Part shown: in pieces, positions 52,001 through 59,613 of the stretch
Layout: every line of letters begins with the position of its first letter
Position numbering within the stretch: the first letter of the stretch is position 1
From: Chimonanthus salicifolius
Taxonomy: Eukaryota; Streptophyta; Magnoliopsida; Laurales; Calycanthaceae
Direction: 5' to 3'
Length of the DNA stretch: 64,000 nt
Assembly: GCA_013350335.1 (NCBI GenBank)
Contig: CM023535.1
Span: 23,777,746-23,841,745 of the forward strand
Translations under genes and position numbers: made by a program
Notes under the pieces: generated by a model
Told to the model about the DNA's origin: nothing
The model's input: only the letters and a program-made list of their open reading frames with translations
Databases searched by the model: none

Positions 52001-52681
52001 TATATTATATTTCCTTCTGCACTAGCCATTAATTCAAGGTGGGCTTGAAGTGTTATAATTTTCCACTCCACTCCAAAAGGCCACCCCCCATAGAGTTACC
52101 CAACTTGTGTGGGTAGGAAAGCTTACATATATCTAGAAGATAAGTTGGGTACTCTAAGAAACCGAAACACCTTGGTCATAAAAAAAAAGATGGGCTTAAA
52201 GTGAATTAATTGAAGTGTTGCTACAATAGGAAATATCATGCTTGGGCCAAAGTATGGGCCTAATTGAACTTGAAGTGACGAGGGCTCTCCAAGGTTGAGC
52301 TGGATTTATCATATTCAGGCTTCGGCGAGGATGGACTCACCTCATATAATATAGTCATTCTTAGACTTAGGGCTGAAACTCGGGTCGGGTGGGCTGGGTT
52401 TGTCCCATGTCAAAAATTTTGAAACCGACCCGACCCGACCCAACCCGAATTGCAAACCCGAGTATGTCAACCCAACCCGACCCGAATTGCTAATACTCTC
52501 AACCCGAGAGTTGACTCGACCCGAGTTAGCCCGAGTTAGCCGAGTGGGCCTTTCCTTATATGGTGGCATTTCTACAAGACAATCCCTCCATATTTTCACC
52601 AAAAGATGAAGATTATATTTCATTTTGAGAAATGATTATCTACAACACAAATTATCTACAGCACCAATATGTTGTCTGGCT

Positions 52682-54203
52682 ATGACATTAGGTTTATTCT
52701 TCACTATGAAGGCCCGTGATCTGGTTCGAAGAGCTTCTTCATCATCCTCTTCCACAGCAAGCATTGCCTTTTCTGTTGGGACCTTGGATGCGGAGGTAAT
52801 CTCCACCCCCCCTGCTGAACCCCTTGTTGTGACCCCTGGGCTTTGCAACAATCCCCCAGCTCTGGGTTCTGCAACCAAAAAATCTACTCCCTCAAACAAG
52901 CCTCCTAGTAAAAAGAAAGACCTCCGTGACTCTGCAACTGCTGGTCCCTCTTTCACAAAACCCAACACCTTGCATGCCTCCTCCCATCAACCCTCTAGTG
53001 TAGTTGCTAACCTTATGGGCACGGACAACCCCCCTTGTGTTGCTGCTACTGAGCTAAACAACAACAATGCTGGTCCTACTGGCTACCCTTCTTCCTACTT
53101 CTAGCAATGGTGCCCATTTGGATTTCCAATGGACTTCTCTTTTCAAGAAGCAGAAAGAGGCTTCCCTTATCCTTGACTATGCTGATCCTCTTGCTGAACC
53201 TGGTGCAGGTGGACTTCTCCACAAGGAAATTGCTGATGGTGAAACTAGCTCAAAATGTACTCTGGTTGGTTACTTTCTTGGCAAAAAGCCCTGGTACCCC
53301 AATGTCAAAAACGGGCTAACAAAGCAATGGAACATCCCTGCATGTGTGGAATTCTTTTCACTAGATGATGGTTTCTACCTCTTCAAGTTTGATAATGCGG
53401 ATGAATGCCAGCATGTGTTGGAGAATGGTCCCTATTTTATTGAAAATAAACCTCTCCTGTTGAAGCACTGGACTGTCTCTTCGGAGCTGAGCAAAGGCAA
53501 CATTGATTCCATTCCCATATGGATCAAATACCCCAATCTAAATGGGGCATTCAGATCTGCCAAAAACCTTGGCAAACTCACTAGTGCCATTGGCAAACCT
53601 CTTTTTATGGATTCAGCTACAGCTAAGGGCACCAACCTGGCCTTTGCCCGTGTTTGTGTTGAGATCACTCCTAGCAGTACTCTCTTTGACACAGTCACCA
53701 TTAAAACTCCCCTTGGCAATCTTGCCCAGAAGGTGGTCTACAGTTGGAAGCCTAAAGTTTGCAAGACTTGCAACTCTTTTCTCCACTCTCCTGATCAGTG
53801 CCCTCTCAAGCCTAAAACTGTCTGGAGACCCAAAAAGCCTTCTGATGTTCCTCTCGCAGCTACTGCTACTGCTGCCAATAAGGGTGATGCTGAAGTTAAA
53901 GGTAGAGAAATCGTCATTGCATCTACCCCTCCTGCAATTCCCTTGCCCCAGCAAGGACAAACTTCAAATACCTCAAGGCCTAGCAACCCCACCTCCAATT
54001 CAAACAAGTTTCAGGCCCTGATGGACCTTGAGGATTTGGTCGAAATTGAAGATCTGGACAAGCCACCCTCTGGAGCTGATCCGCTGAACCAGAAGGACAC
54101 CAACATCATTGATGCCATTATAGACTCCTTTTCTTGGGCTAAAGCTGACAATGAAAAGGAGGATGCTGAAGGGCCTGTTGGCCACCAATCTTTTCCATGT
54201 TAA
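52682..54203 (+). pseudogene. LINE ORF1 (DUF4283 and zinc knuckle), one frameshift
   Basis: The N-terminal part (MTLGLFF or MKARDLVRR start, Ser/Pro-rich, to about 53100) and the main part are in different frames, joined by a shift near 53070-53104. The main part has the DUF4283 region (CTLVGYFLGKKPWYPNV, FKFDNADECQHVLENGPYF, PIWIKYPNL) and a CCHC knuckle CKTCNSFLHSPDQC at 53757-53800. The frame stops at 54203, overlapping the ORF2 start at 54197 by 7 bases. This protein type binds LINE RNA in the retrotransposition particle. Confidence 0.88.
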
Positions 54204-58928: not shown

Positions 58929-59160
58929 TTAGTGTTTCTTAATGGTGAGCTCTGCTCTCAGGTGGAGTACGCCATTACTGAAGTAGGGATTGTCCTCGAC
59001 TATGAAATCCGTCCATTTGATAGCAAACAGGTTTCTATAACCAACTGCCTTTCCACCAGTGAAGGTATAGTTACCCTTATACTTGCTCACAAACTCTCCT
59101 GTTGCTTTTGTCCTTGCTGCGAACTCGTAGTCCACTGCAAAGCTCACTATTAAGAAAGAG
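58929..59160 (-). pseudogene. Captured 3' exon of a MATH-domain-like gene
   Basis: On the minus strand an open exon-like stretch reads VDYEFAARTKATGEFVSKYK, then GNYTFTGGKAVGYRNLF and NPYFSNGVLHLRAELTIKKH, stop at 58929-58931. The spacing of G-K-x-x-G-Y-R-x-L-F and the final LHLRAELTI fits the second half of a MATH (TRAF-like) domain, as in plant BTB/MATH substrate adaptors. CTTTGCAG directly upstream of VDYEF could be its old splice acceptor. Sequence 58560-58928 would then be its 3' UTR. It lies inside the hAT ends and outside the LINE. Family assignment is moderate; no promoter or start is present. Confidence 0.5.
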
Positions 59161-59613
59161 GGGAAGAGGAAGTGGAAGCGGAAGAGGTTATCGATTTTCG
59201 AAAGAGGGGAAACCGAAGAGGAAGCGGAAGAAGGCAAACCGCAGACGAATGGGTTTCAAATGTGTTTAGGGTTTTATTTAAGTTATGAATTCAGGTCAGG
59301 TTTTTCTGGATCGGGTTTTTTTGGATCAGGTCAGGTCGGGTTGAAATTTAAATTCTTCAGCCCAACCCGACCCTAATTTCAGTCGGTTTTTTTTTTTTCC
59401 TAACCCAACCCGACCCGAGTTTACAATTTCTATAACCCAACCCACACTATTTTCGGGTCGTGTCAGTCGGGTCGGGCCAAAACCCAACCCAAGTTTCACC
59501 CCACTTAGACTGCAATGGACTTCCACCTTCCACTATTTTTGTAGAAATTTAAATATTATTCAAATTATATGCATATTAAAATGAGATTTTTTTTTTTTTT
59601 ATAATATGGGTAT

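Follow-up and report, generated by a model that had tools for sequence, protein, structure and literature searches.

A hAT transposon that carries both a LINE and a fragment of a cellular gene raises the question of how the two came to lie between one pair of transposon ends, in what order, and from which gene. The element lies in a 64,000-nucleotide stretch of the Chimonanthus salicifolius genome (C4:23777746–23841745; hereafter the window), and the host genome searched comprises 852,596,351 bases (852.6 Mb) in 591 contigs. A sequence-only reading of the window had proposed a Pack-hAT into which a LINE inserted later, and that proposal holds up: parent genes exist, the other copies are free of the LINE, and the fragment is foreign to the hAT family. 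It is highly probable that the element is a multicopy Pack-hAT in which the 3′-terminal part of a POB1-type gene took the place of the interior of a hAT transposon, the chimera was amplified, and a LINE subsequently interrupted the window copy.

The element and its LINE

The element (52368–59503) has hAT-type ends, with outer ends TAGGGCTGAAAC... at 52368 and ...GTTTCACCCCA at 59503 (termini TAGGGCTGAAACT... on the left and ...AGTTTCACCCCA on the right), and a perfect 8-bp target site duplication, CTTAGACT, is read in the window on both sides (52360–52367 and 59504–59511); the inverted ends and the duplication are exactly as first described. Its parts, with the basis for each, are the following.

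52360–52367, no strand: target site duplication, left copy, CTTAGACT (window sequence and copy comparison)
52368–52673, plus strand: hAT left arm, 306 bp, with TIR TAGGGCTGAAACT and CCCGACCC-type subterminal repeats (agrees with the longer family members as far as the junction)
52674–52707, minus strand: first 34 bp of the captured 3′ flank of the POB1 gene, left of the LINE (parent homology begins here)
52708–58446, plus strand: LINE inside the captured DNA (Pfam domains; comparison with LINE-less copies)
58447–58928, minus strand: captured 3′ UTR / 3′ flank of the POB1 gene (parent comparison)
58929–59148, minus strand: final 72 codons with the stop codon, captured from a POB1-type BTB gene and forming the end of a predicted MATH-like domain (protein matches, parent comparison)
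59149–59153, no strand: right junction (alignment with parents and longer hAT copies)
59154–59503, plus strand: hAT right arm with TIR ...GTTTCACCCCA (genome matches, longer hAT copies)
59504–59511, no strand: target site duplication, right copy, CTTAGACT (window sequence and copy comparison)
58932–59255, minus strand: 108-codon stop-to-stop frame with 36 hAT arm/junction residues and 72 POB1 residues, no Met (ORF list, translation)

Host-derived DNA in the window thus comprises 52674–52707 and approximately 58443–59148, with the LINE in between. The gene fragment had been placed outside the LINE on one side only; the fragment is real, but host DNA flanks the LINE on both sides. An inverted repeat (58935–58955 / 59137–59157), considered as a mark of the capture, was set aside: all of its left arm and approximately half of its right arm (59137–59148) are parent-derived.

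The LINE seen between the hAT ends is real, with four domain types above the Pfam cut-offs: DUF4283 (E 5.4e-27) in ORF1, an endonuclease (EEP; 6.1e-6), reverse transcriptase in two frames (6.5e-8 and 4.1e-18) and zf-RVT (1.9e-12); ORF2 is broken into several pieces. Endonuclease, reverse transcriptase and poly(A) assign it to the plant L1 type, although it has no target site duplication, and 7 bp of the target (CAATAAC) are missing. The tail consists of 12 A at 58435–58446, of which up to 4 possibly belong to the target. LINE-less copies read TTCACTATCAATAACAAAAGAATATC (with small differences) where the window has TTCACTAT, the LINE with its 12 A, and GAATATC; this comparison places the LINE at 52708 to approximately 58446, inside the captured 3′ flank, and because it sits inside captured DNA its insertion is younger than the capture. 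A search with 52700–53200 listed only three further partial matches (92%, 83%, and 81%), so the 5′ start is set by comparison with the LINE-less copies. In one search the first ~300 bp of the LINE (52708–53010) had no other match in the genome, the nearest relative beginning 311 bp into the query.

Other repeats were observed elsewhere in the window: a near-perfect palindromic stretch of 1.46 kb at 21227–22689 (self-inverted at 92%), a shorter related palindrome (86%) 19 kb from it at 2386–2999, and direct repeats at 27091–27789 and 35013–36781 (90–92% identical, ~8–9 kb apart), perhaps LTRs. At 59925–59950 lies TGGTATCAAAGCC, which we take to resemble the primer-binding site of a plant LTR retrotransposon.

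Copies and relatives of the element

A search of the host genome with 58560–59260 (40 of 180 candidates scored, so that counts are lower bounds) returned at least seven other near-full-length matches (93–95%), two matches on C10 over the gene-derived part alone (92–93%), one on C6 (78%), and many further matches that cover the right arm alone. At all seven other near-full-length loci (L002–L008, representing five independent insertions) the LINE is absent and the left arm is joined directly to the sequence that lies 3′ of the LINE in the window. Because L002, L003, and L006 are 98.7–99.4% identical over 3.7 kb that spans element and flanks, they were counted as one insertion; the six independent insertions (the window, L002/L003/L006, L004, L005, L007, and L008) are alike in inner structure. 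The sequence-only reading had suggested looking for hAT copies without the LINE, and all five other independent insertions are of this kind, with the POB1 piece present. LINE-less copies are 1.36–1.43 kb long; these 1.4-kb copies are accounted for by arms and captured DNA, with no transposase of their own. Perfect 8-bp duplications flank four of the six independent insertions (CTTAGACT, GCTAAGGG, GTTAATGT, and GTAGAGAG); that of L007 agrees at 7/8 positions, or 8/8 with the border shifted by one base, and that of L008 has decayed (6/8 by eye, with no match of at least 7/8 in a systematic check). Mean K2P distance among the six copies is 0.053 (0.041–0.074).

Longer members of the family were sought with 52555–52690, a segment mostly missing from the short relatives; at least 22 matches were obtained and 14 stretches fetched, of which 13 (L041–L053) were compared, the fourteenth (L054) being the locus of the window itself. 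L041, L042, and L043 are 5115, 5558, and 5079 bp long, each with a perfect 8-bp duplication, and duplications of at least 7/8 were found at 7 of the 11 longer loci L041–L051; within the stretches fetched, L044 and L051 lack the right arm, and L048 and L049 have the left arm in part only. A Pfam scan of L041 and L042 found a hAT-like RNase-H domain (PF14372) and a dimerisation domain (PF05699) in the former and, in separate frames, a zf-BED finger and the dimerisation domain (PF05699) in the latter. When introns were ignored, no stop-free frame at the 11 loci L041–L047 and L050–L053 (longest 587 codons) held both the BED-region and the dimerisation-region motif words; a source of working transposase was therefore not seen in these loci.

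Compared with the L005 copy, L041–L043 agree at 91–94% in the left arm as far as element position 307, the onset of the POB1 sequence, and at 75–83% in the right arm from position 1050 on; the window alignment shows the same border between arm and POB1. The gene piece was not found in any of the 11 longer loci, within the stretches fetched and among matches longer than 60 bp, nor in any of 14 short relatives of ~0.5 kb (L015–L028), nine of which have a duplication of at least 7/8; as L015 and L016 share a right flank, these 14 loci represent at most 13 insertions. The MATH-like stretch could have been an original part of the hAT family, a case raised at the outset, but it was not found in any of the 25 related loci compared. 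Three loci taken for elements without a left end (L012, L013, and L014) proved to be the right ends of the ~5-kb L042, L041, and L043, respectively, and a duplication candidate at L014 (394 bp, within CGGGTCGG repeats) was false. At L052 (933–2338 and 4543 onward), and likewise at L053, a Pack-hAT copy and a longer copy lie in opposite orientation, with ~2.2 kb between the former and the left end of the latter.

The captured gene piece and its parents

The minus-strand frame 58932–59255, compared with 5.8 billion proteins, matched 31 proteins at E ≤ 1 among 36 candidates, which upholds the claim of a cellular gene fragment on this strand: the named relatives are all from plants, and two of the 31 (from Ananas and Dendrobium) are named POB1 by their source. 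The best match by E-value has 81% identity over 65% of the query, and no identity exceeds 81% apart from two short partial matches (P0027, 85%). No local alignment spans more than 67% of the query, and the last ~72 residues align at the C-terminal end of the relatives; the first 36 residues of the 108-codon frame are hAT arm and junction. Of the relatives, 25 were retrieved, and alignments took in 22 of them and then 16.

A Pfam scan of the minus-strand fragment gave no domain match, and in the POB1 C-terminal domain MATH_2 stays under its cut-off of 32 bits (14.5 for the last exon of the parent, 21.6 for the homologue P0002); searching the PDB by sequence, with either the fragment or alignment A2 as query, yielded chance-level matches only. 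Modelled by itself, the 108-residue fragment reached a mean pLDDT of only 37, and the prediction was discarded as unusable. The predicted structure of P0002 has a mean pLDDT of 62.5 (block means of 83–89 for residues 111–130, 64–68 for 131–150, 85–90 for 151–170, and 23–46 for 1–40); a fold search with it gave 83 matches with E ≤ 0.001, and its best match to SPOP MATH structures has E 3.8e-6, a TM-score by target of 0.68 and 14% identity. The predicted fold of this homologue, not the Pfam score, thus fits a MATH-like POB1 C-terminal domain, so that the MATH label given to the fragment is supported by modelled fold but not by sequence profile.

The parents are two POB1-like genes on C10 (L009 and L010, at 59.61 and 60.75 Mb), which match the copies over the captured segment only and are themselves a duplication, 97.1% identical over 9.1 kb and 1.1 Mb apart. 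Over the captured segment the window is 95.1% and 95.8% identical to the two genes, and all copies lie within 93.9–96.0%. In L009, L010, and the C6 paralogue (L011), the 177 C-terminal residues of the homologue are encoded without a stop (tblastn on the fetched loci). The last-exon frame of L009 has 278 codons and a BACK domain, and a frame upstream encodes the second half of a BTB domain; the first half was not found in L009. A parent gene had been predicted for 58560–59260, and two were found on C10, but with the BTB domain of L009 partial they fall short of a proven intact gene.

The captured piece begins inside the last exon, at codon V of VSFAVDYEF, and extends ~520 bp past the stop; it consists of the 3′ part of the last exon and 3′ flank and crosses no intron. 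The fragment is therefore not intron-flanked in its parent, as the sequence-only reading had supposed it might be, and introns do not discriminate here between capture from DNA and capture from RNA.

In a tree of captured segments, the copies cluster against both C10 genes with moderate support (UFBoot 83); within the copy group the tree is near-star, with inner nodes at 17–29 except for L002/L003/L006 (100), and neither C10 gene stands out as the closer one (support 58). At sites where the C10 genes differ and the copies agree, the copies side with L010 at seven, with L009 at four, and with neither at one. The six insertions are separated from both C10 genes by seven fixed substitutions and one fixed 8-column gap; at one of the seven sites the copies carry the base of the C6 paralogue, and some fixed differences are thus changes in the parents.

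The 108-codon frame could in principle be a new functional fusion gene under selection: two insertions, the window copy and L002/L003/L006, keep it open, and the window differs from L010 by four non-synonymous and five synonymous changes. Yet the frame lacks a Met, four of the six independent insertions have a break in it, and the corresponding raw counts are 7/3 for L002, 7/4 for L003 and L006 (the same insertion as L002), 6/2 for L004 (two codons skipped), 4/4 for L005 (one skipped), 7/3 for L007, and 8/6 for L008, so that non-synonymous changes exceed synonymous ones in four of the six insertions, equal them in L005, and fall below them in the window alone. By these counts and the state of the frame there is no sign of selection for a protein, and a fusion gene is very improbable.

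Breakpoints, origin and known systems

At the left breakpoint hAT sequence ...CAATATGTT is followed by POB1 GTCTGGC..., with a 1-nt overlap (T) shared with L010. At the right breakpoint POB1 ...CACTG (kept in L007 and L008) is followed by TTAA and then hAT GAAAGAGG; position 59149 is A in the window and G in L007/L008, as in the parent, and TTAA (59150–59153) has no counterpart in the parent or in the three longer hAT copies compared. Where L041 and L043 have approximately 4.4 kb between the arms, the element has, the LINE aside, ~0.74 kb with a match to the 3′ end of the POB1-like genes. Because transposase-bearing longer elements share the arms up to the breakpoints, it was transposase DNA that gave way to gene DNA, and this most likely happened once. 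Overlaps of 1 and 0 nt pick out no single repair pathway.

How the gene DNA entered can be asked of the same breakpoints and of the parent loci. In the neighbouring-insertion model of Catoni/Gisby, which is favoured for Pack-TYPE elements in the available parts of two sources (PMC8903248, PMC13317346), two related hAT copies would flank the POB1 3′ end, their inner ends would decay, and the pair would move jointly. Close hAT pairs do exist in this family, since L052 and L053 show a Pack insertion ~2 kb from a longer copy. However, the model requires an insertion inside the POB1 last exon, where L009, L010, and the C6 paralogue all continue uninterrupted, with no footprint seen at the coding boundary; neither hAT arms nor L041 match anywhere in the three 10-kb parent loci (L009, L010, and L011), the 3′-flank boundary being comparable only between the two C10 duplicates; and both arms stop where one same longer element could be interrupted. 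We consider this route unlikely here. Uptake of a reverse-transcribed POB1 message is still less credible, to the point of being nearly negligible: the captured piece is intron-free, as cDNA would be, but introns are not expected in any case within a last exon and 3′ flank, and because its 3′ boundary lacks poly(A) and its start falls within an exon, DNA capture is favoured.

The breakpoints may instead point to a template switch from a transposase-bearing element to a distant gene, followed by end joining and amplification, in which case the model proposed for animal Pack-TIRs would work for plant hATs as well; we advance this reading tentatively. Under the template-switch reading, repair or replication of a longer hAT copy would have switched template to the POB1 locus, end joining would have closed the switched product, and transposase acting in trans would have spread it to the six sites at which it is now found; the LINE inserted later into the captured DNA of the window copy. 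The locus is of value because a single genome preserves the donor type, the parent genes, the two breakpoints, six descendant insertions, and a subsequent LINE, so that the events can be placed in order and capture models become testable at the parent locus in sister species. Six dispersed insertions with a POB1-type 3′ end might also feed small RNAs against a POB1-type gene.

How cut-and-paste transposons take up gene pieces is still regarded as open, as far as the available text of PMC3260210 and PMC13317346 goes; in the latter, a 2026 review of plant gene capture, the word hAT is absent from that text. The sequence-only reading called capture less documented for hAT elements than for Mutator or Helitrons, which is partly true, but such cases are in print, as the accessible portions of three sources show (PMC3260210, PMC2528002, PMC8903248), and the window element adds a well-documented case to what is already known of gene capture by hAT elements. 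In maize, 2 Ds2 and 9 Ds-l4 elements with gene fragments are described, in the portion available, as rare for hAT (PMC3260210); as here, they have the hAT arms of a transposase-bearing element and a middle of filler DNA, some of it from genes, whereas they belong to another hAT family, and here one gene piece recurs at six insertions with one copy split by a LINE. The rice and maize Pack-hATs (PMC8903248, in the part at hand) are likewise non-autonomous hATs with host coding DNA, 8-bp duplications, and clusters of related copies; that survey differs in using Ac and Bg ends as queries and in arguing for capture by neighbouring insertions, while here both the donor type and the parent genes have been identified, and the parents show no neighbour insertion. 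Hatvine-6 elements of grapevine are also a hAT family with gene pieces, their variable inner regions matching genes, but in the excerpts available no single gene piece is traced through several copies (PMC2528002). Comparable in proposed mechanism are the multicopy Pack-TIRs of animals and their FoSTeST model, in which one chimera is amplified by transposition and in which, for Ssk-FB4, a short overlap at one breakpoint is paired with an insertion at the other, as here; those cases are from animals, and within the part of the source available its authors leave the matter open for plant Pack-MULEs (PMC8277862).
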